NCBI GenBank assembly: GCA_009760855.2
Contig: WPIO01000347.1
Span: 1 to 64,000 of the forward strand
Reading direction: 5' to 3'
DNA: 64,000 bases
Origin: Cristatella mucedo
Taxonomy: Eukaryota; Bryozoa; Phylactolaemata; Cristatellidae
Below are positions 20,526 to 64,000 of this stretch, piece after piece; within the stretch, counting starts at the first letter, position 1, and every line of letters begins with the position of its first letter. A program made the translations under genes and the position numbers. Under the pieces are notes generated by a model. The model saw nothing but the letters and a program-made list of their open reading frames with translations. It was not told the DNA's origin and searched no databases.

Positions 20526-20652
20526 CTGTCATGTCATGTCATGTCATGTATCTCCGTCTGTATCTCCACAAAGTCCTAAAGACCATGTGGGTGTTACGCA
20601 GGAGAGTCTCGTATTCACAGCCTAAGCGGCTTTCGGTACGCATTCGGTAGCC
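20526..20652 (-). repeat. Truncated R3 repeat nested in the LINE endonuclease
   Basis: Inverted relative to the 13441 copy. It starts with a tail of TGTCATGTCATGTCATG type, then TATCTCCACAAAGTC, GTGGGTGTTACGCAGGAGAG and GCCTAAGCGGCTTTCGGTAC. The uninterrupted LINE sequence is seen at 29200-29225 in the other long copy. Confidence 0.8.
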
Positions 20653-21196: not shown

Positions 21197-21326
21197 GATT
21201 TCACTCACTATTCAATTGCATTTCCCTTTGCAGCAAATGCAAAGCGCCTAGAGAGAGATTAAGTTCTCCGAGGGCGCTTTGTCAAGTGCATTATTATGAT
21301 TATCATTATTATTATTAAAAAGCATG
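21197..21326 (+). mobile_element. Severely 5'-truncated LINE (tail only) nested in the long LINE
   Basis: Only the last ~130 bases of the family are present: TTTCCCTTTGCAGCAAATGC, the terminal hairpin, then an ATT-rich tail ending near 21326. It is inserted in the linker between endonuclease and RT of the 19905-23485 element, in the same orientation. Confidence 0.88.
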
Positions 21327-28390: not shown

Positions 28391-28589
28391 ACAGTCACAC
28401 AGCTACTTTTCTATCAATACCCACGAGCGCGTTTGCTTACAGCCTGGGAAAACTAGAGAGTTTCGTGAAATGGCTTTTAGGTCAGACCTTCAGCCACTAG
28501 GCACTAAAGAACCATCGTTAGGCTGGAAGCATTAACGGACCGCCTGTCTCGCGTAATTGCTCCAGCATAGTATCAAGCATCGTCCAATC

Positions 28590-31716: not shown

Positions 31717-31948
31717 CAAAAACTAGGAAGTTATTCACAGTCCCTAGATAGAGTACGGTGAGCTACAGATTCAAACATCTAGCTGAATACCTATCAAAAT
31801 ATCATTCACTGATTAAGGCCGAGGTGAGAAGACATGCTTGCATAGGAAAAGCCAGGCCATTCAAATTGCTACATTGACAGACTCAATACCAGTAGAAAAT
31901 AAAACACTCCCACGCAATGCCTAGAGGGCTACAAGCGTTTCAACGTAC

Positions 31949-33911
31949 CTGGGTTACGCGGATGCATACATAATCCAGGTACGTAATCATCGCATCCATT
32001 ACAGTACCAAGTAGTTTTGCATTTTGGTTCAGTATACGACGACTCCTCCTTGGCCAGTTCGTCCAAAAGAACGATGCGGCCGTCAGGCGCTTTTGGCAAA
32101 AGCTGCTTGTGGTTAGTATGTCTCGGGCAGATAATCATGCACATAGGAGGGACGCCTTTCCAATGTTCAGAAATATTGTCACCGATGCAGCTCAGCAGTG
32201 GTTGAAAAACATTCCAGATATTCTCCGGTGTCGATCTTGAAAATGCAATTACATCCAAGGTGCCGTTGACGCGCTTAATGACAACGTGCACACGGTCGAC
32301 TACGTACAGTACACCATCCTTCCAAACCTCTGGTGTGGCTTTTTTAAAACACACCCATGTTATTACTGATGCCAGGTTAGTTGGAAAGAACGCTAGCGGC
32401 ATGATATTTCCAATGAAAGTGAGACGCACATGAACAGAAGGGCAGTGAGACAATTCTTGTAACCATTCTTTCAACTTAGGCGGTGGTTCTTCTGTAAGAT
32501 TACCGGTCAATATGTATTTTCCCTTATCAACCGGGCTGATCATGAGAAAATGCTGCATAAAACTGGCAACAACAGGCACACGATCGCTGTTTCCCAGCAA
32601 CAAACCAAAGAAAATCTCATCGAGAAACCCGCGAGCGTATTCCTCTTTTGCATTGCTATAGTAGTCCTTGCCCAGGTAATTTGGCATTGTTTCACAATTG
32701 TCGTGATGTAATATCTTCTTTAATTCGTGAACAATACGGTGAGTTTGATGAAATATCAAGTGTTTAAGAGACTCGGAGCTCTCTAACCATATAATCTGGG
32801 ATGTAGCCACAAGAGAACGAAGTATGACTTTCACAGTGGAGTCTTCAGGCTCCTGATCCAAGTACCTTCCATACACATCTCTGACTTGTTGCCATTCCAG
32901 GTATGGCTGACCCTCGCTTGACCGATGCTCTTTAATCTCTTTCATAATACGGCACCAAGATGCGGGATATTGCACATTTCGTTTAAGTTTATCCTTGATC
33001 AATGAAAACAGCTTAGGCAAGCCATCCTCTAGCGGCTCAGTGACATTCTTCGTGCAGCTAAGTGACATGATCCGAACATCAGCAGAAGATAAAGTAGCCA
33101 ACGACCGCTTGAGAAGGTTGATGGAAGCTTGGTGACAATTCTTGTTTCCTAGTGCACTGATGTGAGAATTAAGCTCTCCTATAGCAGACTTTTTAACTTC
33201 CGACACATAACTCTCCATATCTTTCAATCTGGCTTTGAAAAGGTCAGGTTCAAGTAGATCGGAGTGGGTTCCAACTATGATCACCCGGATATCAGTAGAC
33301 TTGGCAAACACAGTCATAAGCCACTTTTTAACCTGATTCTTCTGCTCCTCAATATCTTCAACCATGCTGTATGCTATTATGCAAAGACCGTTATTAGGCA
33401 AAAATATTGGAACCACTTTATGATAAATTTCATGACCTCCAAAGTCATTCAATATCACGACCGAATCTCCAATTTTCGAAAGGTTTTGATCAATCACGCG
33501 AGTTCTGTCTTCTACTTCACAAGCTGAGATTCGCCCCATAAGCAAAGACTGGGCGATGCTAGTCTTTCCGGCTCCAGTGTTGCCAAGCATGTTTATGGTG
33601 TCAGTGCAAAGTGACTCCTTTCCTTGAATATTATCTCGGAAGTACTTCCGAATAGCTTCCATTCCTTGGTCACACACTTCGCTAGGCGGGAAAACCATTG
33701 GGTCATTTTTCAAGTCAAGGTGGATCAGCGAAGTGCGTACGACTTCCTCTGGCAGCTCACTAATCATATTTCTATTTCTTGATTCCTGTAAATAAAGAGA
33801 GCTCAACTGAGGGATGAGCCACGATGGGAGAGGCAGCTCACCAATGGCCCAACTCAGTGTTTTATCCACACTACTATGAAGCATTGAAGAAAGGAATGAA
33901 TATTTGTTGAG
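31949..33911 (-). CDS. Large exon: last LRRs, Roc GTPase and COR domain
   Basis: The acceptor is cttag before CTC-AAC-AAA, continuing the phase 0 Leu boundary used by the LRR exons, and the donor is gtacgt at 31948-31943. In the 654-codon exon, residues about 1-85 hold terminal LRRs (LIHLDLKND, then PMVFPPSEVCDQGMEAIRKY, the usual LRR-Roc linker). The Roc domain shows a P-loop GNTGAGKTS, a switch-I-like DRTRV, the G3 motif DFGGHEIY and the G4 motif THSD. The COR domain follows (WCRIMKEIKE, then a winged-helix-like region, then MPLAFFPTNL). The exon ends in a Cys-rich stretch (CNGCDDYVPGLC). No kinase domain is seen. The closest familiar architecture is MFHAS1-like LRR-Roc-COR. If the donor is not used, the frame runs eight more codons (the G-completing codon plus TLKRL) to TAG at 31929, which would be a short alternative C-terminus lacking the CARD. 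Confidence 0.93.
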
Positions 33912-34599: not shown

Positions 34600-35046
34600 T
34601 ATCAAGACGTAAAGTTCAAAGTGACCTTGTAATAGACGAATATATTGCTCCAAAACAGAGTCCTTGTTTTATTATGCCTACATTAAGCACAAGAAATTGG
34701 TAACAAGTGTCGCGAATGGTGAAAGTAGAATGATACATCTAACTGGATCTATCCATTGGTAATGTCCGGTCTCAAGTTCTGCAACTCACGGCTTGTCAAT
34801 ATGTTGACGTGTAAAAAATCAGGCACTCATCAGTGGGGCCAAATTAAACAAGTAGGCTTGTCTGTTGTCGAGAATTTCGTAGCTGTCAAATCACGCCACT
34901 TTAGGCCACCATTAACAGGCCCCCAATTAAAGCAGTGCCTATGTTTCAAGGCTGGGTCACTCACTTTACGATCGCTTCATGACCTGGCTACAGCCTGCCT
35001 ATCGGAAATATTCCCAAACTAGGCCTGGCATCGTACCACCGGATTT
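34600..35046 (+). mobile_element. Older LINE subfamily, left part (interrupted)
   Basis: Diverged LINE sequence colinear with 39250-39690: shared blocks around GTCTCAAGTTCTGCAACTCA, GTGTAAAAAATCAGG and GCATCGTACCACCGGATTTT. It stops at CAGAATAAA where a younger minus-strand LINE is inserted, and resumes at about 36150. Confidence 0.72.
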
Positions 35047-36142
35047 TCAGAATAAATAATAATAATGATAATTACAATAGTGCACTTGATAAAGCGCCCT
35101 CAGAAAACTCAATCTCTTTCTAGGCGCTTTACGTTTGCTGTAAAGGGAAATGCAATTGAACGGTAAGTAATATCACGCTTGATAAACAAACAAAATGAAT
35201 AACATGGTTAGGGTCGACATGCACAGGGTCAGCATGCAAATGTGGTTAGTGGCAGCATGCACAGTGTCAGCACGCATAAGCACATCAAGGACGAATCACA
35301 GGGACCCGCTAAATAATGTCCTACATAGGTGTTTTGTCAATTTTTTTTTAATGTGGTCAAGTCAGGGGATGTTCTGATGCAAGTCGGGAGGGAGTTCCAG
35401 GATTTTGGAGCATACGAACTAAATGCACGATCTCTAAAGGTTTGAGGTTTGTACAAGGCATTTTTAGACTGTTGGATTCCAAAAAGCGGGTGGCACGCTG
35501 CTTGGCCTGGTGGGGGAGTAGATCTGAGAGATAGGCTGGAGCCAAAGAATGAAGTGACCTAAAAGTGAGCGACAAAAACCTTGAAGCCAATCTATTGCTT
35601 CACTGGTAGCCATTGCAGGTCGGCGAAAAGTGTTGTATTGTGACGACTGCGACGCTCACGACAGACAAACCTAGCTGTGAAGTTTTGCACCAGCTAAAAT
35701 CGCCTGATCGCACATGCTGGTAGGCCAGTAAGCAGTGAGTTGCAGAAGTCGAGACGGGATGTCACGAATGCATCGACCAACTTAGATGTGGTATCCTTAT
35801 CTGAACGAGCCCGAAATTTAGCAATGTAATGAAGCTAAAAATAGGCAGATTCAACTGTGGAGCTGATATGGTCGTCTAACGAGAGGTCGCTTTGGAATAT
35901 GATACATAGATTTCGTGCTAATTCAACAGGAGATATGCTGGCAGACCCAATTTTGAGCGTCAGCCATTCCAATTTCTGAATTACACTGGGTTTGCCCATA
36001 ACTAGTAAGTTGGTTTTATAATCGTTTAGTTTTAGACAATGTGCTGCCATCCATGTGCGGATGTCATAAATGCATGCAGCAAGTGAGTTGAGTGATTTTG
36101 AGGTGATCGAAGTCATGGAGGGATCAAGGCAACGGTACACCC
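35047..36142 (-). mobile_element. CR1/L2-like LINE nested in the older LINE
   Basis: The AAT tail is at the left, then the terminal hairpin, 3' UTR, and C-terminal and RT fragments (LHSLAPAYLSDLLPHQAKQR, WMAAHCLKLNDYKTNLLVMG). Truncated near the DPSQPSSTS-equivalent region. The older LINE continues on both sides. Confidence 0.85.
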
Positions 36143-36149
36143 CTTTAAC

Positions 36150-36520
36150 GGAACGTTTCTTAAACTTCATAGGCTCCCAAAACATGAACCTAATCCGGAC
36201 TGATGGTTATACACCCTACTGGACCTGATAAAAATGTTAAAAAGCCTAAAACCATTTTCTATCACAGCGTTTGGTGAATAACTGTGATTCTTCCTTGGTT
36301 TTGTATTAGCCTGGTGAAACTGGATGCTGCGACAACTTATATTTGCATCCTGACCCTTAGTATGTCACCTCTAGCCGGATTATCCTCGTTACAATTGTGC
36401 AGGCCACCAATAACGATGCGATCATGCTTTCTTTGTAGCATATCAAAAAGCGCCAAGATAGAGATTGCGTTCTCAGAGGGCTTTATACAAATGCGATATT
36501 ATTATTATGCGGAAACTTCA
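36150..36520 (+). mobile_element. Older LINE subfamily, right part
   Basis: Colinear with 39715-40060: CTCCCAAAACATGAA, GGATGCTGCGACAACTTATATTTGCA, ACCACCAATAACGATGCGATC-type blocks, then a diverged hairpin and ATT tail. The sequence after the tail (GGAAACTTCAGCCTGAGTAG) also matches the other copy, so this is a segmental duplication. Confidence 0.72.
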
Positions 36521-37029
36521 GCCTGAGTAGGACAGCTGTGGCTACTTTGCTATATTCATAGTTTAGGTATCATTCGCATCATTTGCTTTCCCATACCGAC
36601 TAGGGCCAGTTTGTGGCCTAGAACTATTAATGGCCTTGCAAAGATTATGGTGCTGCCTTTGGCTTATTGCCGTTTCGATTTATGACAATAAGTGTTACGT
36701 AACGGGCTGAAGAGGTCAGGTGTTGCCACTAAGACAGAAGGCAAGGTGGTTGCCCATTGCCTAGCTGTGGGTCCACGAGAAGAAAGCTCTTTTGAATCTT
36801 CTACAGGCACGACTAAACGCAATTGTAAGAACTGAGAAAATACTGTGAGGACCATGCTGCTTCGCTTTGCTTTTCATCAAGAAGGATACCTTCTAATCAG
36901 TCGCTAGCAAGTTCGAAGATTAAGGCACACTGTAACAAAAAAGAATGCAGAAAACAATGATTTATGTATAGATTTATGTTCATGGTTTAACTTTTTATTC
37001 AAGCTTACATTCGTCCCTCATCAATTCAT
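36521..37029. other. Intronic sequence, nothing recognised
   Basis: After a short stretch shared with 40056-40095, no further similarity or coding signal was seen. Confidence 0.35.
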
Positions 37030-37611
37030 CTCAGTGGCCACATTACACCACTTCTTGCCGACCTGCACTGGCTACTAGTCAACAGATTGACTTCAAGGTT
37101 TTGTCGCTCACTTTTAGGTCACTTCATTCTTTGGCTCCAGCCTACCTCTCAGATCTACTCCCCCAACAGGCCAAGCATCGTACCACCCGCTTTTCGGAAT
37201 GCAAAATGATACCAATACTTCGCACAAACCTCAAATCCTTACTAGACAGTGCATTGAGTTCGTATGCTCCCAAAGTCTGGAACTCACTCTCGACTTGCGT
37301 CACATCATCCCCTGACTTGACCACATTTCTAACGATCTTTAAAAAACACCTATTTAGGACAGTATTTAGTGGGTCTGTGTGATTCGTCATTAATGTGCTT
37401 ATTGTGCTGACACTGTGCATGCTGCCACTAACCACATTTGCATGCTGACCCTGTGCATGTCACCCCTAACCATGTAATTCATATTGTTTATCAAGCATGA
37501 TATTACTCACCATTCAATTGAATTTCCCTTTGCAGCCAATGTAAAGCGCCTAGAGAGAGATTAAGTTATCTGAGGGCGCTATATCAAGTGCATCATTATT
37601 ATTATTATTAA
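37030..37611 (+). mobile_element. CR1/L2-like LINE 3' fragment
   Basis: It begins in the HITPLLADLHWL region, reads FRSLHSLAPAYLSDLLPQQA in frame, and ends with 3' UTR, terminal hairpin and (ATT)n. Confidence 0.88.
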
Positions 37612-46479: not shown

Positions 46480-48440
46480 CCGATTGATATTAGGGCCGAT
46501 ATTGAGCTCCTCGAGTTGTAAGGCATCGGGAGCCGATGAAAGATACGTAAAAGAAAAAAATTCGCAGGTAAAAACCGACTAAAATCATTTAAGATGTCTA
46601 CATACATACCAGAATTAAGATTGCCACAACCTTCAAGGCAAACCCACCATATTCGAATGCAGCAGGTATGCAGTAAGAGCTGAATGTAATTGAATGTTTG
46701 AGATGACAATCTCTTTGTAACCTATCAGCCCCTTCTTATACAAGTAACGATAATGGCCTGCTTACGTCATTAGCAACCAAGCACTAGTTAGTAACGAGTG
46801 ATCAGTTTGGCTCTTGAATTTATGTGGTCACAACCAGCGGTTTTCCAACGAATACAATTCACAGTACAAATTCAGGTTGTCAGTTTAAAGCACAAAAACG
46901 ATCATGGCCATTAGCATTGATTGGTGGCAGAAATATAGAGATCTACTAACGGCTCAAAGTTTTGGAAAAGGCCAGCTTTGTGGTTTCGGGAAGAGTAGCT
47001 CACTGACTTGTAGAAAGTATATCAGGTCACCAGCTGCTGTTAACATCACTGCTGGCTTACATCCTGCAGCAATCGATACAATTTACTGAAATTGAAACCT
47101 TTAAATGTTGTAGCCTTGGGTCGCGTAACGTTAAAAAAAAACAAACCAATGTCTGTGAAAACTGTATTTTTAAACGCTAACCAAACACTAACGTTTGTAA
47201 TCATTCACGTAATCGGCTTGCTAAATCGTACGGTGCATTTACACGGAACGATTCAGGTTTTTCTTTTGCCTAAACAAAGATCACTTAGTCTCAGCGTCCC
47301 CGTTAGTATGCAATATAATTAGGCTATGCCTGTGTTTAGGCATAATGCCGGAATCTCGAAAAGTGAGCTTTTTCGATGGGCCTTTTAAAAAAGTCAATTC
47401 TTCTATGTTTTTTGACCGATGTCAGACAAGAACGTGCTTCCTGCCATTCGGGTACCTCCCCTAAACTGGATGTATTAGCAGCAGGGCGCAATATCGTCTA
47501 GAAGACAGTGAATGCCGTCCAATCACTCAGATGCAGCTCCATAACCTACGAACAGCTTCCACAGTTAGCATCGTTAAAGTCAGTCGGCATATGTAATTTC
47601 ACTGGCTTAGCGGACGCTGGTGCGAATGGAGGAATACGTAACGAACGTACACGTGATTGCTGTGGACGATAGTTGCATTGGTAATGGTTCGAGAATCTAA
47701 TTCAATGAAGGGATACTGAAAGGTGGTAGTGATCCGTGCAACAACTGCTTGCACGAATAAACTCTCTCCGAACGCCCAAAACTTCAACACAAGTAAATTT
47801 TGCCTATTAACGGTCGTTGCCACATCCTCTGAAATATTTTACGAAAACTTCGGTGACCAACGGGGCACATTACACACACAACTCGTTGGACCCAAGTGCC
47901 TCCACAACCCGAATTTATGCTATTGCCTTACCTCCACTTTCAAACGTAAAACCCTTGAGTAGAAAATAAAAGAAAACTCAACCCTAAGCGATCGCTAGTT
48001 AATTACAACCAATTGCACCAGCTTCAATAGCGATTACCCTCTGTAACATAGTGGTACAACTTGTTTTATGGTCGCTCGTACGGGAGAAGGGGAGAACATG
48101 GGAAACCGATATGACCACAGCTGTGACTGCTTCTAATAGAATGGCTGATGATTCAGTAGATTTCAGTATACTACATTAGATTTGAAGACTAGCTAGTGTC
48201 CTCATAGTCGTCGTGTCGAGGATCGCAAGAACTAGGTACGTTAGAAAGTAAATGTCAAACGATGATCACTCGTAATTATCACATCAAAATATACACGTCT
48301 AGTTAAATCGGACCCAACGTTATATATTTGCAGAGCTTAGAAAATTAGATCAGTACGGATAGTAAGTCAATAAATAAGATGTTTAATTAAAACGTCTGAA
48401 CGACGAATCTTTAATAATACCTCCTTAAAGGACCCTCAAC
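46480..48440. repeat. Degenerate, internally deleted array unit with a dead LRR exon start
   Basis: The sequence is colinear with the array units but much more diverged. On the minus strand, 46495-46515 matches the start of the cassette exon (CTCGAGGAGCTCAATATC), but the acceptor AG is gone and the rest of the exon is not recognisable. Matches to the post-exon intron follow to about 47.35 kb, then the unit-start region (the ggtggtagtgatccgtgcaa block at 47720), ending near 48.35 kb. About 2 kb, including where the next LRR exon should lie, is missing before U1 starts. It marks the old edge of the array. Confidence 0.75.
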
Positions 48441-50557
48441 AAAAAACAAGCCTGCTTGACTGGTCTTCGAAAAAGCCAGTAATTCCATGGTTGTCATTAC
48501 ACATTATACAAATACGTGCTCTTGACAGTCGGCAAAAATCAACTGAATGCATTAGTTCCACGTTAGGATGTCCTTACACACCTAGTTAATGCCGTCCACT
48601 CATGCTGATGCAGCTCAATAACCTGCGAACAGGTTCTGACATTTGCATCGGTTGACTAAGTCGGAAGACGGAATTGCATGCCCTTAACAGGTTGTACTGG
48701 AAAGAAAGATCACGAACATATAGATGATTGCTGTAGGTAATAGTCGTCGTGCTAGTCGTTCGCGAATCTTATCCGATGAAGGGATACTGAAAAGTGGTAG
48801 TCATCTATGCAACTACTGCATGCCCCACCAAGCTCTCTCCGAACTCAGTAAACTTTCAGCAGTGCCGGATTTTACAGGTAATCGATCGTACTGCCGTGCT
48901 CCACCATCGTAAAAAAAACCGTCGGTTACCGACAAGGCACATTATATACACCAATTGTTGGACCCAAATGCCTCATCAAGCTGAATTGCAGGCTAATGCC
49001 TTGAGTCCACTTTCAAACGTGAAACACTCAGGCAGAAAATACACGTGGGGACGTTACCCTAAGCGTTTACTAGTTTAATTGCAGCCGTTTGCACCAGCTT
49101 TAATAGCAACTACCCTCGGTGATACAGTGGTGCAGCTTATTGTATGGTCACCTGCACAGGAGAAGGGATGAATGTGGAAAACCGATATGACCACTGCTAT
49201 TACTACCTCTAGTGGAATTGCTGACAATTCAGTGGATTTAAGTGAACTCAATGAGATCGGGCGACAACCCGGTGTCCTCACAGTCGCCGTGTCCGAGAAC
49301 ACAAGAACTAGGTTCATTAGGAAGTCGATGTAAAGCGATGATCATTCCGAATTGTCACGTCAAAATAGACACGTAAAGTTAGGTTTGACGCACTGTTACA
49401 TATTTCTAAAGGCCAAATGATGGGATTAGTATGCATTGCAAGTCAGTAGTTTAGACGTTTATAGAAAGTGTCTCCTCGACGAAGTTCTCTGACGTAAGGG
49501 TGAAGACATACCATCAACAACAAGGATAAGGTGCCCCCAACCAGCCTGCCAGCAAATGCACGACACATTCATAAGGGGCAGCAGTGGAAGAATGTTAGTA
49601 CCACCTAATCCTGAATCGATTACCACATGGAAATGCAAAGCAAACTGGTGCTACACCCAGTAAGAAAACCTTTTACACTGTCGAACACTTAGAATGTGCA
49701 AGGGTATCCAGCTTAGCTGGATTATTCTTGCTCATTCCTCATCTGAGTGAGAGCAAGCCTAACTATTGAGCAGCTCGGGGGCAAGTAGTGAGTTATAGCA
49801 GGACTTGAACTTCTTTTGATGCCTATTTAACGTTGTTTGTTCGTTCCTTTCAATTAAGCCCTCGATCGAAAAGATTTCCCACACCCAAGCTCATTATTAG
49901 CTGCTGCTTGTATGCTCCTGACCGGTGGGTGTACTTTATTTGTAATCCTATTCTGCTACACAGTATTTCGATTCTCTCTGCGACCTAGAAGCATGCCGAG
50001 GTGCCCGTTTTATTAGGGCTTGAGCAGGAATTTTAAGAGTATTCCTAAAAGAAGAATTTAAGCTGCATATTATTATTGCTAAACAGTTGAATCCATCTAC
50101 CTTCAGGGCCGAGGGTGAAAAGTGCCTCCTTTTAACAATCGAGGTGATCGTGTTTTTAAATTCTGCCAGTACGTGATACCATATTCCCAGGTACAAGAGG
50201 CTGTTATCGACGATGAGACTACTTTGCAGCCGTTTAAGGGAAACTCTTTAATCAGCTAGGAATGTGCTCACTGAAATTCTATCATTAAATGGCGATCTGA
50301 AATGTTGAGGAAAACCAAATTCTAACTGGTCCGTGCATTGGCCTAAAACTACAAACGAAATTTAAAAAGATAATTAGAGGTCATTCAGTCACTGCACTAT
50401 TTGCAGAGGACATGCAAGCACATGCAATCTAGGCATGCTATAAACAATTTTCAGTAGGTAGCCCAGAAAATGTACTAACCCTGCTAGTAAACAATTTTTG
50501 CAGGCCCACCCCAGCAAGAAATAAACAAACACGTTTCAGTGCTTTATACAACCTTAC

Positions 50558-50698
50558 CGATGTCAGCCGTTCCAAACCATCAGGCAGACTTGACAGGCCG
50601 CAACACCGAATGCTAAGCGTCTTCAGTGCTTTCAGTTGACATAAGAATGAAGGTACTTTTCCGAGAGTTACATTCCAGCTCATATTGCACTCCTCGAC
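50558..50698 (-). CDS. LRR cassette exon E1 (unit U1)
   Basis: A 141-nt, 47-codon phase 0-0 exon with donor gtaagg and acceptor gtttag. It encodes VEECNMSWNVTLGKVPSFLC followed by QLKALKTLSIRCCGLSSLPD and GLERLTS, that is, two LRRs of 24 and 23 residues. Compared with the other cassettes, the first LRR has lost its leading Leu (V) and the second conserved Leu (C), making it the most divergent LRR1 apart from E2. All 11 nucleotide differences from E3 change amino acids. It is the cassette closest to the Roc-COR exon and the last intact one before the degenerate unit. Confidence 0.88.
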
Positions 50699-51346
50699 CT
50701 AAACGACATTTGTTACAGATGAAAGGTATGTTAAAGAATAAGAAATTCGCAAGTGAAAACCAACACGTAACATCTAACGTATACATATCCATGCCTAAAC
50801 GACGGCTTCTACAAATTCCAGATAGAGCCATTCATATTTCAATGAAGCTGGTATGCAGTAAGAGGCTGACGTCATCGAATAATAGAAAAAAGAACCTCTG
50901 TACAACCTATGGGCAACTTCTTATCGATAGAAAAGTAATGGCTTCTTAGGTCGTTGGCCCCCATGCACTTGTTCATAGTAACTGTTAGGTTTGCCGTTAG
51001 GGGTATGTGCTTAGTGCCTACTTTTTTTAATGCTGAAATTTCACAGTTCTAATTCAAGCAGTCCCTGAGAACCACAAAATCTCTAGCGTTATCAGCATTC
51101 ACATTGTCGGAAATACAGACATCTACTCGTGGCTCAATGTTTACATACTAGCTAAAATCATGAGTTGTGAACGATTAGTGTGTTGACTTGCTGCAAAATC
51201 TATGCTATGCCAAGCTGCTGGCTAGTTCACTGATTGCATAGGCCGTGCAGCAGATAACACTACTAAACTGACACATAAACCTTAAAATGTTGCAACATTA
51301 GGCCGCCTAATGTTCAAATTACACCAACCCAAGGTCCTATCTAAGC

Positions 51347-51371
51347 CGTTTGTTAAAACGCTTAACAAACG
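51347..51371. repeat. Perfect 10-bp inverted repeat present in every unit
   Basis: The stem CGTTTGTTAA, a 5-base loop and the stem TTAACAAACG form a perfect hairpin about 0.65 kb upstream of the LRR exon in transcript direction. The same structure is present near 54.46, 57.57, 60.67 and 63.78 kb. In U3 a substitution falls in the loop and leaves the stem intact. Its function is unknown. Confidence 0.7.
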
Positions 51372-51543
51372 CTACTGGTTGTAATCTTTTGACCTATTTA
51401 GCTTGCTATATTACAGCCTGCTTTTCCGATAAAGGCCTACAGTTTTTCTCCTGTCTTTTAAATATACCACTTCTTCTCAGCAGCCCAGTTAGGCTTAATA
51501 ATCATTAGTCCATGCCGGTAGTGAGGCATAAAGCAGCCTTATC

Positions 51544-54500
51544 GAAGAACAAGCTTGCTTGACGGGTCTTCGATAAAGTCAGTAATTCCATGGTTGTCAT
51601 TACATATTATACAAATACGTGCTCTTGAAATTCGGCTAAGATCAACTGAATGCATTAGCTCCACGGTGGGATGTCTTACACACCTAGTTAATGCCGTCCA
51701 CTCATGCTGATGCAGCTCAATAACCTGCGAACAGGTTTTCACATTTCGCATCGTTTGACCCTGTCGCTGACGGAATTGCACTCGCTTAACAGGTTATACT
51801 GGACGGTAAGATAAAGATCACGAAGATATAGGTGATTGCTGTAGGCGATAGTGGTCGTGCTAGTAGTTCGCAAAACATTCGATGAAGGGATACTGATAGG
51901 TGGTAGTCATCTATGCAACTACTGCTTGCCCCACTGAGCTCTCTCCGAACTCAATAAACTTTCAGCAGTGCCGGATTTTACAGGTAATCGATCGTACTGC
52001 CATGCTCTGCCATCGTAAAAAAAACCGTCGGTTGCCGACAAGGCACATTATATACACCAATTGTTGCACCCAAATGCCCCATCAACCTGAATTGCAGGCT
52101 AATGCCTTGAGTCCACTTTTAAACGTGAAACACTCAGGCAGAAAATATACGTGGGGACGTTACCCTAAGCGTTTACTAGTTTAATTGCAGCCGTTTGCAC
52201 CAGCTTTAATAGCGATTACCCTCAGTAATACAGTGGTGCAGCTTGTTGTATGGTCACTTGTACAGGAGAAGGGATGAATGTGGGAAACCGATATGACCAC
52301 AGCTATTACTGCTTGTAGTGGAATTGCTGACAATTCAGTGGATTGTCGTGAACTCAATGAGATCATGCGACTACCCAGGATCCTCACAGTGGCCGTGTCC
52401 GAGAACACAAGAACTAGGTACATTAGGAAGTCGATGTAAAGCGATGACCACTCGGAATTGTCACGTCAAAATACACACGTCCAGTTATATTTGACGCACT
52501 GTTACATATTTCTGAAGGTGAAATGATGGGATTAGTATGCATTGTAAGTCAATAGCTTAGACGTTTATCGAAAGTGTCTCCTCAATGAAGCTCTCTGACG
52601 TAAGGGTGAAGACATACCATCAACGATACGGATAAGGTGCCCCAAGCCAGCCCGCCTGCAAATGCACGACACATTCATAAGGGGCAGCAGTGGAAGAACG
52701 TTAGTACCACCTAATCCTGAATCGATAACCACATGGAAATGCAAAGCAAACTGCTGCTACACGCAGTAAGAAAACCTTTTACACTGTCGAACACTTAGAA
52801 AGTGCAGGTTTTCCAGCTTAGCTGGATTATTCTTGCTCATTTCTCATCTGAGTGACAGCAAGCCCAACTATTGAGCAGCTCGGGGGCAAGCAGTGAGTTA
52901 TGGCAAGACTTGAACTTCTTTAGATGCCTATTTTACGTTGTTTATTCGTACCTTTCAATTAAGCCCTCGATCGAAGAGGTTTACTCCACCCAAGCTCATT
53001 ATTAGCTGCTGCTTGTATGCTCCTGACCGGTGGGTGTACTTGATTCGTAATCCTATTCTGCAAGACAGTATTTCGATTCTCTCTGCAACCTAGAAGCATG
53101 CCGAGGTGCCAGTTTTATTAGGGCTTGTGAAGGAATTTTAAGAGTATTCCTAAAACAAGAATTTAAGCCGCATATTATTAGAGCTCAACTGTTGAATCCA
53201 TCTTCCTTCAGGGCCGACGGGAAAACCTGCGTCCTTTTAACAATCGAGGTGGTCGTGTTTTTAAATTCCGCCCGTATGAGAAACCATATTCCCATGTACA
53301 AGAGGCTGTAATTGCCGATGAGAATACTTTGCAGCCGTGCAAACAGAAACTCTTCAATAAGCTAAGAATGTCATTACTTAAACATTATCGTTAAATAGCG
53401 ATTTAAAATGTTGAGGAAAACCAATTCCTAACTTGTCCGTGCATCGGCCTAAAACTACAAAAGAATTTTAAAAAGATAATTAGAGGTCATTCAGTCATTG
53501 CAATATCTGCAGAGGACATGCAAGCACATGCAATCTAGGCATGCTATAAATAATTTTCAGTAGGTAGCCCAGAAAATGTACTAACCCTGCTAGTAAACAA
53601 TACTTGCAGGCCCACCCCAGCAAGAAATAAACAAACACGTTTCAGTGCTTCATACAACCTTACCGATCCCTGATGTTCCAAAACTTCAGGAAGACTTGAC
53701 AGGCCGCAATCCGCAATGCTAAGCTTCTTCAGTGCTTTCAGTTGACATAAGAATGAAGGTACTTTTTTTATAGTTGTATGCCCGCTGATATCGAGCCCCT
53801 CGAGCTAAACGACATTTGTAACCGACGAAAGGTATGTTAAAGAATAAGAAATTCACAAGTGAAAACCGACACGTAACATCTAACGTATACACGTACATGC
53901 CTAAACGACGGCTTCTACAAATTCCAGGTAGAGCCCACCATTATTCAATGCAGCTGGTATGCAGTAAGAGGTTGACGTCATCGAATAATAGAAATAAGAA
54001 TCTCTGTACAACCTATAAGCAACTTCTTATCCATAAAAAAGTGATGGCTTCTTAGGTCGTTAGCCCCGATGCACTTGTTCATAGTAACTGATACGTTTGC
54101 CACTACAGGTATGTGCATAGTGCATACTGTTTTTTGATGCGGAAATTTCACAAGTCTAGTTCAAGCAGTCCCTGAAAACAACAAGATCTCTAGCGTTATC
54201 AGCATTCTCATTGTCAGAAATACAGACATCTACTCGTGGCTCAATGTTTACGTACTGGCTAGAATCATGAGTTGTGAACGATTACTGTGTTCACTTGCTG
54301 CAAAATCTATGCTATGCCAAGCTGCTGGCTAGTTCACTGATTGCATAGGCCGTGCAGCAGTAAACACTATTAAACTGACACATAAACCTTAAAATGTTGC
54401 AACATTAGGCCGCCTAAGTTCAAATTACACCAACCCAAGGTCCTATCAAAACCGTTTGTTAAAACGCTTAACAAACGCTACTGGTTGTAATCTTTTGACC

Positions 54501-54649
54501 TATTTAGCTTGCTAAATTACAGCCTGCTTTTCCGATAAAGGCCTACAGTTTTTCTCCTGTCTTTTAAATATACCACTTCTTCTCAGCAGCCCAGTTAGGC
54601 TTAATAATAATTAGCCCATGCCGGTAGTGAGGCATAAAGAAGCCCCATC
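51544..54649. repeat. Tandem LRR-cassette unit U2
   Basis: A complete copy of the unit, head-to-tail with U1 and U3, with a tgcttgac landmark at 51556 and LRR exon E2 inside. Intronic sequence is closely similar to the neighbouring units with scattered substitutions and small indels. Confidence 0.92.
53664..53804 (-). CDS. LRR cassette exon E2 (unit U2)
   Basis: A 141-nt phase 0-0 exon with intact GT/AG sites, encoding LEGLDISGHTTIKKVPSFLC then QLKALKKLSIADCGLSSLPE and VLEHQGS. It is the most divergent cassette: the loop after the first beta strand (GHTTIKK) and the last seven residues differ from the other four copies. Residues 31-32, immediately after LxI in LRR2, are AD here but RC, GG, QC and GG elsewhere. 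The core VPSFLCQLKALK is invariant. The frame is open despite the divergence, which argues for use. Confidence 0.87.
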
Positions 54650-57600
54650 GAAGAACGAGCTTGCTTGACGGGTCTTCGAAAAAGTCAGTAATTCCATGGT
54701 TGTCATTACATATTATAGAAATACGTGCTCTTGAAATTCGGCTAAGATCAACTGAATGCATTAGCTCCACGGTGGGATGTCTTACACACCTAGTCAATGC
54801 CGTCCACTCATGCTGATGCAGCTCAATAGCCTGCGAACAGGTTGTGACATTTCGCATCGTTTCACCCTGTCGCTGACGGAATTGCACTCGCTTAACAGGT
54901 TATACTGGACGGTAAGATAAAGATCACGAAGATATAGGTGATTGCTGTAGGTGATAGTGGTCGTGCTAGTCGTTCGCAAATCTTATTCGATGAAGGGATA
55001 CTGATAGGTGGTAGTCATCTATGCAACTACTGCATGCCCCACCGAGCTCTCTCCGAACTCAGTAAACTTTCAGCAGTGCAGGATATTACAGGTAATCGAT
55101 CGTACTGCCGTGCTCCACCATCGTAAAGAAAACCGTCGGTTACCGACAAGGCACATTATATACACCAATCGTTGGACACAAATGCCTCATCAACCTGAAT
55201 TGCAGGCTAATGCCTTGAGTCCACTTTTAAACGTGAAACACTCAGGCAGAAAATATAAGTGGGGACGTTACCCTAAGCGTTTACTAGTTTAATTGCAGCC
55301 GTTTGCAACAGCTTTAATAGCGATTACCCTCGGTAATACAGTGGTGCAGCTTGTTGTATGGTCACTTGTACAGGAGAAGGGATGAATGTGGGAAACCGAT
55401 ATGACCACAGCTATTACTGCTTCTAGTGGATTTGCTGACAATTCAGTGGATTGTCGTGAACTCAATGAGATCGGGCGACTACCCAGTGTCCTCACAGTCG
55501 CCGTGTCCGAGAACACAAGAACTAGGTACATTAGGAAGTCGATGTAAAGCGATGACAACTCGGAATCGTCACGTCAAAAATACACACGTCCAGTTAGATT
55601 TGACTCACTCTTACATATTTCTAAAGGTCAGATGATGGGATTAGTATGCATTGTAAGTCAATAGCTTAGACGTTTATCGAAAGTGTCTCCTCGATGAAGC
55701 TCTCTGACGTAAGGGTTAAGACATACCATCAACGACACGGATAAGGTGCCCCCAACCAGCCTGCCTGCAAATGCACGAGCACATTCATAACTGGCAGCAG
55801 TGGAAGAACGTTAGTACCACCTAATCCTGAGTCGATTACCACATGGAAATGCAAAGAAAACTGTTGCTACACGCAGTAAGAAAACCTTTTACACTGTCGA
55901 ACACTTAGAAAGTGCAGGATTTCCAGCTTAGCTGCATTATTCTTGCTCAATTCTCATCTGAGTGACAGCAAGCCAAACTATTGAGCAGCTCGGGGGCAAG
56001 TAGTGAGTTATGGCAGGACTTGAACTTCTTTTGATGCCTATTTTACGTTGTTTATTCGTTCCTTTCAACTAAGCCCTCGATCGAAGAGATTTCCCACACC
56101 CAAGCCCGTTATTAGCTGCTGCTTGTATGCTCCTGACCGGTGGGTGTACTTTATTTGTAATCCTATTCTGCTACACAGTATGTAGATTCTCTCTGCGACC
56201 TAAAAGCATGCCGAGGTGCCCGCTTTATTAGGGCTTGTGCTAGAATTTTAAGAGTATTCCTAAAAGAAGAATTTAAGCTGCATATCATTATTGCTCAACA
56301 GTTGAATCCATCTTCCTTCAGGGCCGACGGTGAAAAGTGCGTCCTTTTAACAATCGAGGTCGTCGTGTTTTTAAATTCCGCTCGTACGTGATACCACGTT
56401 CCCATGTACAAGAGGCTGTAATTGCCGATGAGAATACTTTGCAGCAGTACAAACAGAAACTCTTCAATAAGCTAAGAATGTCATTACTTAAACATTATCG
56501 TTAAATAGCGATTTAAAATGTTGAGGAAAACCAATTTTTAACTGGTCCGTGCATTGGCCTAAAACTACAAAAGAATTTTAAAAACATAATTAGAGGTCAT
56601 TTAGTCATTGCACTATCTGCAGAGGACATGCAAGCCCATGCAATCTAGGCATGCTATAAATAATTTTCAGTAGGTAGCCCAGAAAATGTACTAATCCTGC
56701 TAGTAAACAATACTTGCAGGCCCACCCCAGCAAGAAATAAACAAACACGTTTCAGTGCTTTATACAACCTTACCGATGTCAGCCGTTCCAAACCATCAGG
56801 CTGACTTGACAGGCCGCAACCCCCAATGCTAAGCTTCTTCAGTGCTTTCAGTTGACATAAGAATGAAGGTACTTTTCCGAGAGATTCATTCCAGCTGATA
56901 TCGAGCTCCTCGAGCTAAACGACATTTGTAACAGATGAAAGGTATGGTAAAGAATAAGAAATTCACAAGTGAAAACCGACACGTAACATCTAACGTAAAC
57001 ATATACATGCCTAAACGACGGCTTCTACAAATTCCAGGTAGAGCCATTCATATTTCAATGCAGCTGGTATGCAGTAAGAGGTTGACGTCATCGAATAATA
57101 GAAAAAAGAATCTCTGTACAACCTATAAGCAACTTCTGATCCATAGAAAAGTGATGGCTTCTCAGGTCGTTAGCCCCCGTGCACTTGTTCATAGTAACTG
57201 TTAGGTTTGCCGTTAGAGGTATGTGCTTAGTGCCTACTGTTTTTTAATGCAGAAATTTCACAGTTCTAGTTCAAGCTGTCCCTGAAAACAACAAGATCTC
57301 TAGCGTTATCAGCATTCTCATTGTCAGAAATACAGACATCTACTCGTGGCTCAATGTTTACGTACTGGCTAGAATCATGAGTTGTGAACGATTAGTGTGT
57401 TGACTTGCTGCAAAATCTATGCTATGCCAAGCTGCTGGCTAGTTCACTGATTGCATAGGCCGTGCAGCAGTTAACACTATTAAACTGACACGTAAACCTT
57501 AAAATGTTGCAACATTAGGCCGCCTAAGTTCAAATTACACCAACCCATGGTCCTATCTAAACCGTTTGTTAAAATGCTTAACAAACGCTACTGGTTGTAA

Positions 57601-57759
57601 TCTTTTGACTTATTTAGCTTGCTAAATTACAGCCTGCTTTTCCGATAAAGGCCTACGGTTTTTCTCCTGTCTTTTAAATATACCACTTGTTCTCAGCAGC
57701 CTACTTAGGCTTGATATTAATTAGCCCATGCCGGTAGTGAGGCATAAAGCAGCCTCATC
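54650..57759. repeat. Tandem LRR-cassette unit U3
   Basis: A complete copy with the start landmark at 54662 and LRR exon E3 inside. The spacing of this unit's landmark to the next (3110) is the longest in the array. Otherwise it is colinear with U2 and U4. Confidence 0.92.
56774..56914 (-). CDS. LRR cassette exon E3 (unit U3)
   Basis: A 141-nt phase 0-0 exon with acceptor tttag and donor gtaagg. It encodes LEELDISWNESLGKVPSFLC then QLKALKKLSIGGCGLSSQPD and GLERLTS. It is the only copy with Gln at position 38, where the others have Leu before Pro. It differs from E5 at seven nucleotides, every one amino-acid changing. The adjacent 87 bases of intron differ from the U4 copy at only one position. 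Confidence 0.88.
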
Positions 57760-60700
57760 GAAGAACGAGCTTGCTTGACGGGTCTTCGAAAAAGTCAGAA
57801 ATTCAATGGTTGTCATTACATATTATAGAAATACATGCTCTTGACATTCGGCTAACATCAACTGAATGCATTAGCTCCACATTGGGATGTCCTTACACAC
57901 CTAGTTAATGCCGTCCACTCATGCTGATGCAGCTCAATAGCCTGCGAACAGGTTCTCACATTTCGCATCGTTTCACCCTGTCCGATGACGGAATCGCACT
58001 AGCTTAACGGGTTATACTGGACGGTAAGATAAAGATCACGAAGATATAGGTGATTGCTGTAGGTGATAGTGGTCGTGCTAGTCGTTCGCAAATCTTATTC
58101 GATGAAGGGATACTGATAGGTGGTAGTCATCTATGCAACTACTGCTTGCCCCACTGAGCTCTCTCCGAACTCAATAAACTTTCAGCAGTGCAGGATTTTA
58201 CAGGTAATCGATCGTACTGCCATGCTCTGCCTTCGTAAAAAAACCGTCGGTTACCGACAAGGCACACTATATACACCAATTGTTGCACCCAAATGCCTCA
58301 TCAACCTGAATTGCAGGCTAATGCCTTGAGTCCACTTTTAAACGTGAAACACTCAGGCAGAAAATATACGTGGGGACGTTACCCTAAGCGTTTACTAGTT
58401 CAATTGCAGCCGTTTGCACCAGCTTTCATAGCGATTACCCTTGGTAATACAGTGGTGCTGCTTGTTGTATGGTCACTTGTATAGGAGAAGGGATGAATGT
58501 TGGAAACCGATATGACCACAGCTATTACTGCTTCTAGTGGAATTGCTGACAATTCAGTGGATTGTCGTGAACTCAATGAGATCGGGCGACTACCCAGTGT
58601 CCTCACAGTCGCCGTGTCCGAGAACACAAGAACTAGGTACATTAGGAAGTCGATGTAAAGCGATGACCACTCGGAATCGTCACGTCAAAATACACACGTC
58701 CAGTTAGATTTGACGCACTCTTACATATTTCTAAAGGTCAGATGATGGGATTAGTATGCATTGTAAGTCAATAGCTTAGACGTTTATCGTAAGTGTCTCC
58801 TCGATGAAGCTCTCTGACGTAATGGTAAAGACATACCATCAACGACACGGATAAGGTGCCCCAAACCAGCCCGCCTGCAAATGCACGACACATTCATAAG
58901 GGGCAGCAGTGGAAGAACGTTAGTACCACCTAATCCTGAATCGATAATCGTATGGAAATGCAAAGCAAACTGTTGCTACACGCAGTAAGAAAACCTTTTA
59001 CAATGTCGAACAGTTAGAAAGTGCAGGTTTTCCAGCTTAGCTGGATTATTCTTGCTCAAATCTCATCTGAGTGACAGCAAGCCGAACTATTGAGCAGCTC
59101 GGGGGCAAGCGGTGAGTTATGGGAAGACTTGAACTTCTTTAGATCCCTATTTTACGTTGTTTATTCGTTCCTTTCAATTAAGCGCTCGATCGAAGAGATT
59201 TCCCACACCCAAGCTCATTATTAGCTGCTGCTTGTATGCTCCTGACCGGTGGGTGTACTTTATTTGTAATCCTATTTTGCTACTTAGTATTTCGATTCTC
59301 TCTGCGACCTAGAAGCATGCCGAGGTGCCCGTTATATTAGGGCTGGTGCAGGAATTTTAAGAGTATTCCTAAAAGAAGAATTTAAGCTGCATATCATTAT
59401 TGCTCAACAGTTGAATCCATCTTCCTTCAGGGCCGAGGGTGAAAAGGGCGTCCTTTTAACAATCGAGGTGGTCGTGTTTTAAAATTCTGCCGTACATGAT
59501 AACATATTCCCATGTACAAGAGGCGGTTATTGCCGATGAGATTACTTTGCGGCCGTACAAATGAAACTTTTTAATCAGCTCGGAATGTGCGCACTGAAAT
59601 TCTATCATTAAATGGCGATCTGAAATGTTGAGGAAAACCAATTTCTAACTGGTCCGTGCATTGGCCTAGAACTACAAAAGAATTTTAAAAAGATAATCAG
59701 AGGTAACTCAGTCATTGCACTATCTGCAAAGGACATGCAAGCACATGAAATCTAGGCATGCTATAAATAATTTTCAGTAGGTAGCCCAGAAACTGTACTA
59801 ATCCTGCTAGTAAACAATACTTGCAGGCCCACCCCAGCAAGAAATAAACAAACACGTTTCAGTGCTTTATACAACCTTACCGATGTCAGCCGTTCCAAAC
59901 CATCAGGCAGACTTGACAGGCCGCAACACTGAATGCCAAGCTTCTTCAGTGCTTTCAGTTGACATAAGAATGAAGGTACTTCTCCGAGAGTTATATTCCA
60001 GCTGATATCGAGCTCCTCAAGCTAAACGACATTTGTTACTGATAAAAGGTATGTTAAAGAATAAGAAATTCACAAGTGAAAACCGACACGTAACATCTAA
60101 GGTATACATATACATGCCTAAACGACGGCTACTACAAATTCCAGGTAGAGCCATTCATATTTCAATGCAGCTGGTATGCAGTAAGAGGTTGACGTCATCG
60201 AATAATAGAAAAAAGAATCTCTGTACAAAGTATCAGCAACTTCTTATCCATAGAAAAGTAATTGCTTCATAGGTCGTTAGCCCCCATGCACTTGTTCATA
60301 GTAACTGTTAGGTTTGCCGTTAGAGGTATGTGCATAGTGCCTACTGTTTTTTGATGCGGAAATTTCACAGTTCTAGTTCAAGCAGTCTCTGAGAACCTCA
60401 AAATCTCTAGCGTTATCAGCATTCTCATTGTCAGAAATACAGACATCTACCCGTGGCTCAATGTTTACGTACTGGCTAGAATCATGAGTTGTGAACGATT
60501 AGTGTGTTGACTGGCTGCAAAATCTACACTATGCCAAGCTGCTGGCTAGTTCACTGATTGCATAGGCCGTGCAGCAGTAAACACTATTAAACTGACACAT
60601 AAACCTTAAAATGTTGCAACATTAGGCCGCCTAAGTTCAAATTACACCAACCCAAGGTCCTATCAAAACCGTTTGTTAAAACGCTTAACAAACGCTACTG

Positions 60701-60866
60701 GTTGTAATCTTTTGACTTATTTAGCTTGCCATATTACAGCCTGCTTTTCCGATAAAAGCCTACAGTTTTTCTCCTGTCTTTTAAATATACCACTTCTTCT
60801 CAGCAGCCCAGTTAGGCTTAATATTAATTAGTCCATGCCGGTAGTGAGGCATAAAGCAGCCTCATC
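57760..60866. repeat. Tandem LRR-cassette unit U4
   Basis: A complete copy with the start landmark at 57772 and LRR exon E4 inside. It shares a tgtccttacac variant with U1, while U2, U3 and U5 have tgtcttacac. This suggests exchange between non-adjacent units. Confidence 0.92.
59881..60021 (-). CDS. LRR cassette exon E4 (unit U4)
   Basis: A 141-nt phase 0-0 exon encoding LEELDISWNITLGEVPSFLC then QLKALKKLGIQCCGLSSLPD and GLERLTS. It carries Gly instead of Ser between Leu and Ile of the second beta strand, and QC at residues 31-32, all predicted solvent-exposed concave-face positions. It has one synonymous change (CTT for the first Leu) against nine amino-acid-changing differences from E5. 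Confidence 0.88.
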
Positions 60867-63800
60867 GAAGAACGAGCTTGGTTGACGGGTCTTCGAAAAA
60901 GTCAGTGATTCCATGGTTGTCATTACATATTATAGAAATACGTGCTCTTGACATTCGGCTAAGATCAACTGAATGCATAAGCTCCTCGGTGGGATGTCTT
61001 ACACACCTAGTTAATGCCGTCCACTCATGCTGATGCAGCTCAATAGCCTGCGAACAGGTTATGACATTTCGCATCGTTTGAACCTGTCGCTGACGGAATT
61101 GCACTAGCTTAACAGGTTATACTGGACGGTAAGATAAAGATCACGAAGATATAGGTGATTGCTGTAGGTGATAGTGGGCGTGCTAGTCGTTCGCAAATCT
61201 TATTCGATGAAGGGATACTGATAAGAGGTGGTCATCTATCCAACTACTGCTAGCCCCACTGAGCTCTCTCCGAACTCAGTAAACTTTCAGCAGTGCCGGA
61301 TTTTACAGGTAATCGATCGTACTGCCGTGCTCCACCATCGTAAAAAAACCGTCAGTTACCGACAAGGCACATTGTATACACCAATCGTTGGACCCAAATG
61401 CCTCATTAACCTGAATTGTGGGCTAATGCCTTGAGTCCACTTTAAACGTGAAACACTCAGGTAGAAAATATACGTCGAGACGTTACCCTAAGCGTTTACT
61501 AGTTTAATTGCAGCCGTTTGCACCAGCTTTATAAGCGATTACCCTCGGTAATACAGTGGTGCAGCTTGTCGTATGGTCACTTGTCCAGGAGATGGGATGA
61601 ATGTGGGAAACCGATATGACCACAGCTATTACTACTTCTAGTGGAATTGCAGGCATTTCAGTGGATTGTCGTAAACTCAATGAGATCGGGAGACTACTCA
61701 GTGTCCTCACAGTCGCCGTGTCCACGAACACAAGAACTAGGTTCATTAGGAAGTCGATGTAAAGCGATGACCACTCGGAATTGTCACGTCAAAATACACA
61801 CGTCCAGTTAGATTTGACGCACTCTTACATATTTCTATAGGTCAGATGATGGGATTAGTATACATTGTAAGTCAATAGCTTAGAAATTTATCGAAAGTGT
61901 CTCCTCGATGAAGCTCTCTGACGTAATGGTGAAGACATACAATCAACGACACGGATAAGGTGCCCCCAACCAGCCTGCCTGCAAATGCACGAGCACATTC
62001 ATAAGGGGCAGCAGTGGAAAAACGTTAGTACCACCTCATCCTGAATCGATAATCACATGGAAATGCAAAGCAAACTGTTGCTACAAGCAATAAGAAAACC
62101 TTTTACACTGTCGAACACTTAGAAAGTGCAGGTTTTCCAGCTTAGCTAGATTATTCTTGCTCATTTCTCATCTGAGTGACAGCAAGCCTAACTATTGAGC
62201 AGCTCGGGGGCAAGTAGTGAGTCATGGCAGGTTTTGAACTTCTTTAGATGCCTATTTTACGTTGTTTATTCGTTCCTTTCAATTAAGCCCTCGATCGAAG
62301 AGGTTTCCCCCACCCAAGCCCATTATTAGCTGCTGCTTGTATGCTCCTGACCGGTGGGTGTACTTGATTCGTAATCCTATTCTGCAAGACAGTACTTCGA
62401 TTCTCTCTGCGACCTACAAGCATGCCGAGGTGCCCGTTTTATTAGGGCTTGTGAAGGAATTTTAAGAGTATTCCTAAAACAAAAATTGAAGCCGCATATC
62501 ATTAGAGCTAAACTGTTGAATCCATTTTTCTTCAGGGCCGACGGGAAAACCTGCGTCCTTTTAACAATCGAGGTGGTCGTGTTTTTAAATTCCGCCCATA
62601 TGAGAAACCATATTCAAATGTACAAATGGCTGTAATTGCCGATGAGAATACTTTGCAGCAGTACAAACAGAAACTCTTCAATAAGCTAAGAATGTCATTA
62701 CTTAAACATTATCGTTAAATAGCGATCTGAAATGTTGAGGAAAACCAATTTCTAACTGGTCCGTGCATTAGCCTAAAAGTACAAAAAAAATTTAAAAAGA
62801 TAATTAGAGGTCATTTAGTCATTGCACTATCTGCAGAGGACATGCAAGCACATGCAATCTAGGCATGCTATAAATAATTTTCAGTAGGTAGCCCAGAAAA
62901 TGTACTAACCCTGCTAGCAAACAATACTTGCAGGCCCACCCCAGCAAGAAATAAGCAAACACGTTTCAGTGCTTTATACAACCTTACCGATGTCAGCCGT
63001 TCCAAACCATCAGGCAGACTTGACAGGCCGCAACCCCCAATGCTAAGCTTCTTCAGTGCTTTCAGTTGACATAAGAATGAAGGTACTTCTTCGAGAGTGC
63101 CATTCCAGCTGATATCGAGCTTCTCGAGCTAAACGACATTTGTTTCTGATGAAAGGTATGTTAAAGAATAAGAAATTCACAAGTGAAAACCGACACGTAA
63201 CATCTAACGTATACACATACATGCCTAAACGACGGCTTCTACAATTTTCAGGTAGAGCCAATCATATTTCAATGCAGCTGGTATGCAGTAAGAGGTTGAC
63301 GTCATCGAATAATAGAAATAAGAATCTCTGTACAACCTATAAGCAACTTCTTATCCATAGAAAAGTGATGGCTTCTTAGGTCGTTAGCCCCCATGCACTT
63401 GTTCATAGTAACTGATACGTTTGCCGTTAGAGGTATATGCATAGTGCCTACTGTTTTTTGATGCAGTAATTTCACAGTTCTAGTTCCAGCAGTCCCTGAA
63501 AACCACAAAATCTCTAGCACTATCAGCATTCACATTGTCGGAAATACAGACATCTACTCGTGGCTCAATGTTTACGTACTGGCTAAAATCATGAGTTGTG
63601 AACGATTAGTGTGTTGACTTGCTGCAAAATCTATGCTATGCCAAGCTGCTGGCTAGTTCACTGATTGCATAGGCCGTGCAGCAGTTAACACTATTAAACT
63701 GACACATAAACCTTAAAATGTTGCAACATTAGGCCGCCTAACGTTCAAATTGCACCAACCCAAGGTCCTATCAAAACCGTTTGTTAAAACGCTTAACAAA

Positions 63801-63974
63801 CGCTACTGGTTGTAATCTTTTGACCTATTTAGTTTGCTAAATTACAGCCTGCTTTTCCGATAAAGGCCTACAGTTGTTCTCCTGTCTTTTAAATATACCA
63901 CTTCTTCTCAGCAGCCCAGTTAGGCTTAATATTAATTAGTCCATGCCGGTACTAAGGCATAAAGCAGCCTCATC
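60867..63974. repeat. Tandem LRR-cassette unit U5
   Basis: A complete copy with the start landmark (here tggttgac) at 60879 and LRR exon E5 inside. It is colinear with U2-U4. Confidence 0.92.
62988..63128 (-). CDS. LRR cassette exon E5 (unit U5)
   Basis: A 141-nt phase 0-0 exon encoding LEKLDISWNGTLEEVPSFLC then QLKALKKLSIGGCGLSSLPD and GLERLTS. It is the most 5' cassette in the window. The array continues past 64000, so more copies are expected upstream in the transcript. Splice sites match the other cassettes exactly. Confidence 0.88.
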
Positions 63975-64000
63975 GAAGAACGAGGTTGCTTGACGGGTCT
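63975..64000. repeat. Start of tandem unit U6 (cut by window end)
   Basis: The first 26 bases of another unit, including the tgcttgac landmark at 63987, so the array continues beyond the window. Confidence 0.8.

Follow-up and report, generated by a model that had tools for sequence, protein, structure and literature searches.

A tandem array of exons encoding leucine-rich repeats (LRRs) in Cristatella mucedo can be read as the ligand-binding part of an animal ROCO gene, whose cassettes duplicate, recombine and diversify under positive selection; we give this reading a probability of roughly two in three (0.68). Under it, an N-terminal LRR exon, many two-LRR cassettes and one Roc-COR exon would make up a single gene. 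Its units would multiply by tandem duplication, and gene conversion or unequal crossing over would swap patches between them, while selection would favor amino acid change at ∼10 codons, on the beta-strand of the concave face and in the loop beside it, with the framework codons fixed. Splicing would join the cassettes into a single solenoid, most likely as a full set, or else in alternative combinations, and the protein may sense a variable ligand, probably microbial, and signal through its Roc GTPase. For this gene family, immune function, splicing mode and ligand are inferred. We advance only tentatively, as a rather doubtful extension, the proposal that there is a germline repertoire of modular LRR–Roc-COR intracellular immune receptors, in which cassette choice or number, combinatorial splicing and gene conversion would supply variants; it would be a VLR- or Dscam-like system built on an LRRK-type GTPase, independent of that in brown algae.

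Gene organization

The window (the whole 64,000-nucleotide stretch analyzed) is part of contig C274 (75,349 bases), in an assembly of 572 Mb and 688 contigs that we searched. The array occupies positions 48426..64000 on the minus strand, in ∼3.1-kb units of ∼91–93% identity with one cassette exon each. Five cassette exons lie in the window, all on the minus strand: E1 (50558..50698), E2 (53664..53804), E3 (56774..56914), E4 (59881..60021) and E5 (62988..63128), labeled W1 to W5 where copies on other contigs are compared. All five are 141 nt (47 codons) long, open, preceded by AG and followed by GT, and in phase 0 at both ends, and each encodes a pair of LRRs (24 and 23 residues). E2 is divergent (21–27 base differences from each of the other four), possibly through sequence error, and was excluded from the codon tests. 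The array continues past the window towards the contig end, with two whole cassettes (C274:66097-66237 and 69011-69151) and a cut one near 72.1 kb. A decayed old unit (46495..48385, minus strand) has ∼68% identity to the other units, and its exon is recognizable only in part. Downstream of the array, on the same strand, lies the Roc-COR exon (31929..33911, minus strand; 660 aa with stop), which carries a Roc domain (PF08477) and has a candidate acceptor, TTAG followed by CTC, at 33911 in phase 0. Rfam gave no match at the gathering score in the window.

A near-identical gene is present on a second contig, C150, with a Roc-COR exon that is 98% identical and six clean cassettes (Ha–Hf); this contig is probably the other haplotype, possibly a recent paralogue instead. 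The N-terminal LRR exon there (C150 131251-131460) ends in AVISLTK followed by GTAAGT, in phase 0, and keeps to the LRR register of the cassettes. Boundaries are thus in phase 0 throughout, and any number or choice of cassettes therefore keeps both the frame and the LRR register.

The same exon order recurs across the genome, where the search yielded at least 136 cassette matches on 28 contigs (presumed allelic contigs counted twice); 134 of the 136 have no stop inside the match, such matches being biased to intact copies. Among the best 19 of 65 Roc-COR matches, cassettes lie upstream, on the same strand and no more than 100 kb away, at 13 (including those on C274 and C150); at none do they lie within 100 kb downstream, and six have them on neither side. 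Cassettes follow downstream within 60 kb at 16 of 20 N-terminal-exon matches, in two cases (C114:261399 and C214:54811) with another N-terminal exon in between. The Roc GTPase domain PF08477 was found in all nine exons of alignment A1, and COR-A (PF16095; E<0.01) in two of the nine, the window exon not among them. Compared with solved structures, the Roc-COR profile matches LRRK2 and LRRK1 chains as well as 4wnr, 3dpu and 6hlu, which we take to be Roco protein structures; its alignment with LRRK1 extends over Roc and beyond (positions 17–473 of 610).

The host is an animal, since the assembly's COX1 follows invertebrate mitochondrial code 5 (TGA=W, ATA=M, AGR=S, AAA=K). The mitochondrial gene order there is rearranged, COX3-ATP6-COX1-ND3, with COX1 named by a family model and the other three genes from reading their translations. 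Code and gene order together speak against amphioxus or an alga as the origin of the DNA.

Variation in exons and introns

The original prediction held that the cassette exons differ almost only at amino-acid-changing sites, that they diverge more than their introns, and that the changes fall on the concave LRR face and the loop after the first LRR strand, through diversifying selection on ligand recognition. Our analysis confirms part of the observation and supports part of the interpretation. Our recount agrees that E1 and E3 differ at 11 bases and E3 and E5 at seven, all in amino-acid-changing codons, and that one of the 10 differences between E4 and E5 is silent (codon 1); taken singly, these counts, which cover no pair with E2, are weak (binomial p 0.049, 0.146 and 0.267, respectively). 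E1 also departs from E3 at framework codons 1, 4 and 6, which concave-face selection does not predict, so this example may in part be array-edge decay. In the 87 intron bases next to the donor, E1 and E3 show the three differences claimed, and E3 and E4 show none, not one. The contrast built on this stretch is weak because it is a quiet part of the intron: among 11 clean units (Ha, at the array edge, was dropped), intron pi is 0.037 there, against 0.0585 over the whole of the intron compared and up to 0.14 at 381–615 nt.

Exon pi over the same 11 units is 0.075, and some intron stretches are higher. The predicted excess of exon over intron divergence therefore holds weakly for the whole exon in the window array and holds for a few codons, but fails in three other arrays (exon/intron pi 0.091/0.091, 0.162/0.176 and 0.115/0.197). 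Within the exon, nt 10–42 and 85–99 have pi of.137 and.156, equaled in 2–3% of intron windows, and nt 43–84 only.013, with 98% of intron windows at least that high. The signal is thus patchy and limited to particular codons, with no general exon excess. Codons 27, 29, 31 and 32 are, as predicted, x3, x5, x7 and x8 of LxxLxLxx, the concave-face positions being assigned from this pattern, not from structure.

Tests across arrays

We compared cassettes in several sets. Set A joins the window array and its counterpart on C150 (12 exons from C274 and C150), W2 and Hg having been dropped as suspect or frame-slipped and h as broken. Set B (n=7) takes six of nine C148 matches and two minus-strand C49 matches, one of which was later dropped; set D (n=12) derives from 10 of 11 C173 and all five C215 matches, and set E (n=7) from nine of 11 C237 matches (10 fetched), both before identical copies were removed. 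Set F holds all five C167 matches, likewise counted before that removal (D plus C167, n=17). Set G (n=9), at first omitted, consists of the other three C148, five plus-strand C49 and one of two C646 matches, all with AG and GT. Other rows were dropped for a frame slip (L045), lack of a clean exon (L061) or a stop (L024_9033), and identical copies were kept once (L046, L052, L053, L068 and L069 removed). Nine further exons, from C509, C491 and C470, were read and found to be nearly uniform; they stayed outside the site models because they are nearly identical. Of the contigs in the genome search, our reading of cassettes covered these.

Several arrays vary at the same codons, and per-codon amino acid diversity correlates between arrays in four of six comparisons (p<.02; the exceptions are B/E, p=.07, and D+F/E, p=.23). 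The arrays are paralogous, so shared variable positions also reflect a shared fold. For cross-validation, each array was given a mask of the nine codons that vary most in the remaining arrays, scored at their first two positions. At these codons change exceeds the intron rate in two arrays. Masked pi in A is.239 against an intron mean of.060 for the slid mask (0 of 2641 offsets as high), and in B.249 against.085 (0 of 1268), with slid-mask maxima of.232 and.243 that nearly equal the observed values and with adjacent offsets correlated. Without W1, masked pi in A is.228, and 0.08% of offsets are equally high. In D it is.337 against an intron value of.176, and in E.230, hardly above the intron value of.197, both resting on ∼260 intron bases with no sliding null. 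An a priori LxxLxLxx mask gives moderate results in A (.166; 1.2% of offsets as high) and B (.160; 6.0%), and values of.301 in D and.360 in E.

These figures bear on relaxed constraint, in which the x positions of the LRRs would drift while the leucines are held, with no positive selection; we regard this as unlikely, though it is the most serious alternative. Drift cannot exceed the neutral rate, so a pi of ∼3–4 times the intron level in A and B, at codons chosen in other arrays, speaks against it, as does nonsynonymous change above intron and synonymous rates at a priori concave positions, which is seen in part. At masked codons in A, dN is 2.5 times dS, and minimum-step counts pooled over A, B, D and E give 70 nonsynonymous (N) to 8 synonymous (S) changes, where 77.5% N is expected (p=.004); outside the mask the pooled counts, 83 N:51 S, show an N deficit (p=.019). 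Taken singly, the masked counts are 15:3 in A (p=.36), 16:3 in B (p=.38), 25:1 in D (p=.02) and 14:1 in E (p=.09), and relaxed constraint would be consistent with the near-expected ratio in A alone. It would also fit the location of the variable codons, mostly at non-framework positions, and the whole-exon dN/dS values below 1 in B and D (dN/dS in the three other arrays.076/.140,.156/.179 and.118/.103); a dN/dS clearly above 1 for the whole exon, as the original prediction implied, is found in the window array only (dN.084, dS.053).

Codon site models and recombination

Site models, run with our own codon-model code, in which branch lengths after M0 could change only by a common scale factor, favor positive selection at individual codons in five cassette sets. 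For set A, M0 omega is 2.10 (p=.026 against 1), and 2dlnL is 32.8 for M1a/M2a and 33.1 for M7/M8, with naive posteriors >0.5 at codons 8, 10, 13, 31, 32, 38 and 44. The M1a/M2a result persists without W1 (2dlnL 27.8; M0 omega 1.81, p=.09), on the intron tree (23.3) and for the six C274 exons alone (15.5). In the other sets 2dlnL is 14.3 (B), 26.6 (D), 47.5 (D plus C167), 21.2 (E) and 28.6 (G, with favored sites 6, 7, 10, 11, 31 and 32). For M0 omega, set B gives a value below 1 (0.59), and those for D (1.15), E (1.98) and G (1.50) are not significantly above 1. Favored codons over the five sets are mostly 8, 10, 13, 29, 31 and 32. The placement of selection on the concave strand is thus borne out in part, yet codons 10, 13, 38 and 44 fall outside the LxxLxLxx strand. 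Diversifying selection itself stands as a site-specific effect, on the evidence of these models and of masked codons changing at ∼4 times the intron rate.

Recombination among cassette units is clear, with four-gamete conflicts in 36 of 66 site pairs in A, 87 of 351 in D and 10 of 36 in E. Because recombination inflates likelihood tests, the nominal site-model p-values are unreliable. The nulls that we simulated cover the set A statistic only, out of those for A, B, D, E and G. For set A, 42 of 100 and 21 of 100 mosaic nulls passed 5.99, but none of 200 matched mosaic nulls reached 2dlnL 32.8 or omega 2.1. In earlier nulls on over-long trees, one of 24 neutral mosaics and none of 24 M1a mosaics reached 33.5, with a largest omega of 2.73.

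Presumed allelic copies and other sources of variation

Presumed allelic cassette pairs show no N excess (∼15 N:6 S without a chimeric pair), a result that favors relaxed constraint. The N:S counts are 1:0 for W3/Hf (whose one amino acid difference is at codon 13), 3:1 for W4/He and 8.2:3.8 for W5/Hd, and 1:0, 0:0, 0:0 and 2:1 for four C173/C215 pairs; one further, chimeric pair gives 12.3:5.7. The Roc-COR exon differs between C274 and C150 by 16 N:2 S, so the LRRs are not alone in showing an N-rich pattern.

Local hypermutation of two exon patches, or gene conversion bringing those patches in from diverged donors, is in our view quite improbable as the source of the variation. Either would account for its concentration in nt 10–42 and 85–99, for the reassortment of these patches between units and for the chimeric look of one C215 exon (L054). 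Local hypermutation is contradicted by silent change, which shows no consistent rise at masked codons (dS at masked/other codons in four arrays.086/.048,.172/.135,.116/.188 and.065/.111), and separate arrays vary at the same codons, often with different residues. That unit differences are consensus errors of a collapsed or erroneous assembly is hardly credible: C150 is full of one-base indels at 155–161 kb, with Hg and h broken and W2 suspect, but the differences between clean exons are substitutions, with no indels, the same patch types turn up on both contigs, and at most one residue separates the members of W3/Hf and of three of the four well-matched C173/C215 pairs.

Comparison with known systems

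Tandem LRR exons on ROCO GTPases under diversifying selection have been reported in brown algae; our search, which covered listings of open-licence literature, showed no animal ROCO cassette array. The brown-algal ROCO genes were reportedly the subject of an earlier study by Zambounis et al. in 2012. As described in the sections consulted of Teng et al. 2024 (PMC11378527), these genes have tandem 72-bp phase-2 exons of one LRR each, with exon shuffling, alternative splicing and many paralogues, and PAML M2/M8 place selected sites 14, 16, 18 and 19 on the concave face. By our own mapping, these sites probably correspond to x3, x5, x7 and x8. To the extent covered by those sections, the bryozoan array shares with the algal genes a predicted LRR–Roc-COR architecture, LRR exons that stand in tandem and are uniform in length and phase, shuffling of exons, many paralogues, and sites under positive selection on the concave face (here assigned by pattern, with tests inflated by recombination). 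Unlike them, as far as the same sections go, it has 141-bp, two-LRR, phase-0 exons, set in 3.1-kb units whose introns closely resemble one another; its host is an animal, and alternative splicing is reported in the algae. Because the unit differs and the host is an animal, we take the array to be convergent with the brown-algal genes. Tetrahymena LRR genes, in the portion consulted of the source (PMC6564038), likewise form tandem arrays of uniform LRR exons that expand by recombination; unlike ours, these ciliate genes number in the thousands, show mostly purifying Ka/Ks and have exons 90 bp long and in phase 2, compared with 141 nt and phase 0 in an animal.

The array can also be set beside Dscam of arthropods and the VLRs of jawless vertebrates. 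Dscam has immunoglobulin-domain exons with mutually exclusive splicing, whereas the exons here encode LRR pairs and, being 141 nt long with phase 0-0, allow one or many per transcript. VLR variation lies on the concave face, and VLRs are assembled somatically and lack Roc-COR; in contrast, the cassettes here are complete open germline exons with splice sites. A 2026 review of animal immune diversification (PMC13428168) covers Dscam, FREPs, VCBPs and VLRs, the term ROCO being absent from the parts consulted. Going by those parts, the array resembles Dscam in its homologous in-frame exons within one animal gene of proposed immune role, and VLRs in its modular LRR cassettes. Variation on the concave face is a further likeness to VLRs. 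The tandem introns of the array, which are closely similar, offer an internal neutral standard against which selection and conversion can be measured; the array also makes the question of alternative splicing directly testable. If this is a true independent animal case, the LRR–Roc-COR architecture, in the family of LRRK2 and MFHAS1, would be a recurrent chassis for immune receptors.

The splice acceptor of the 141-nt cassette exons is pyrimidine-poor and ends aaatgtcgtttag in all 14 units examined, from the window and from C150, a second contig with a near-identical gene copy that is probably the other haplotype; such an acceptor might favour regulated splicing. A decayed cassette unit (window 46495–48385, minus strand), with about 68% identity to the others and its exon mostly gone, lies at the array's 3′ edge, and one cassette copy on another contig (C49:978893–979033, L024) has an in-frame stop at codon 33. 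C150:155000–161000 (L014 and L015) carries one-base indels densely spaced relative to the window's contig, C274, as in unpolished long-read sequence, and these leave the C150 counterparts of cassette exons E1 and E2 broken.

The Roc-COR exons of C150 (L027) and C274 (window 31932–33911, minus strand) differ at 16 nonsynonymous and 2 synonymous sites, a ratio unexpected in a signalling domain, though the differences are few. Downstream of this exon, and in the stretch separating it from the cassette array, sit many mutually similar fragments (window 778–2251, 3562–6049, 7855–8230, 11217–12070, 19240–23480, 27815–30961 and 34619–37610; about 66–94% identity to one another), which read like LINE-type reverse transcriptase elements.

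On contigs C509, C491 and C470 (L028–L036), the array has a period of about 3.79 kb, each unit apparently with two exon types, and the nine cassette exons read are almost the same in sequence. Judging from these exons, this array is homogenised, unlike the diversified arrays.
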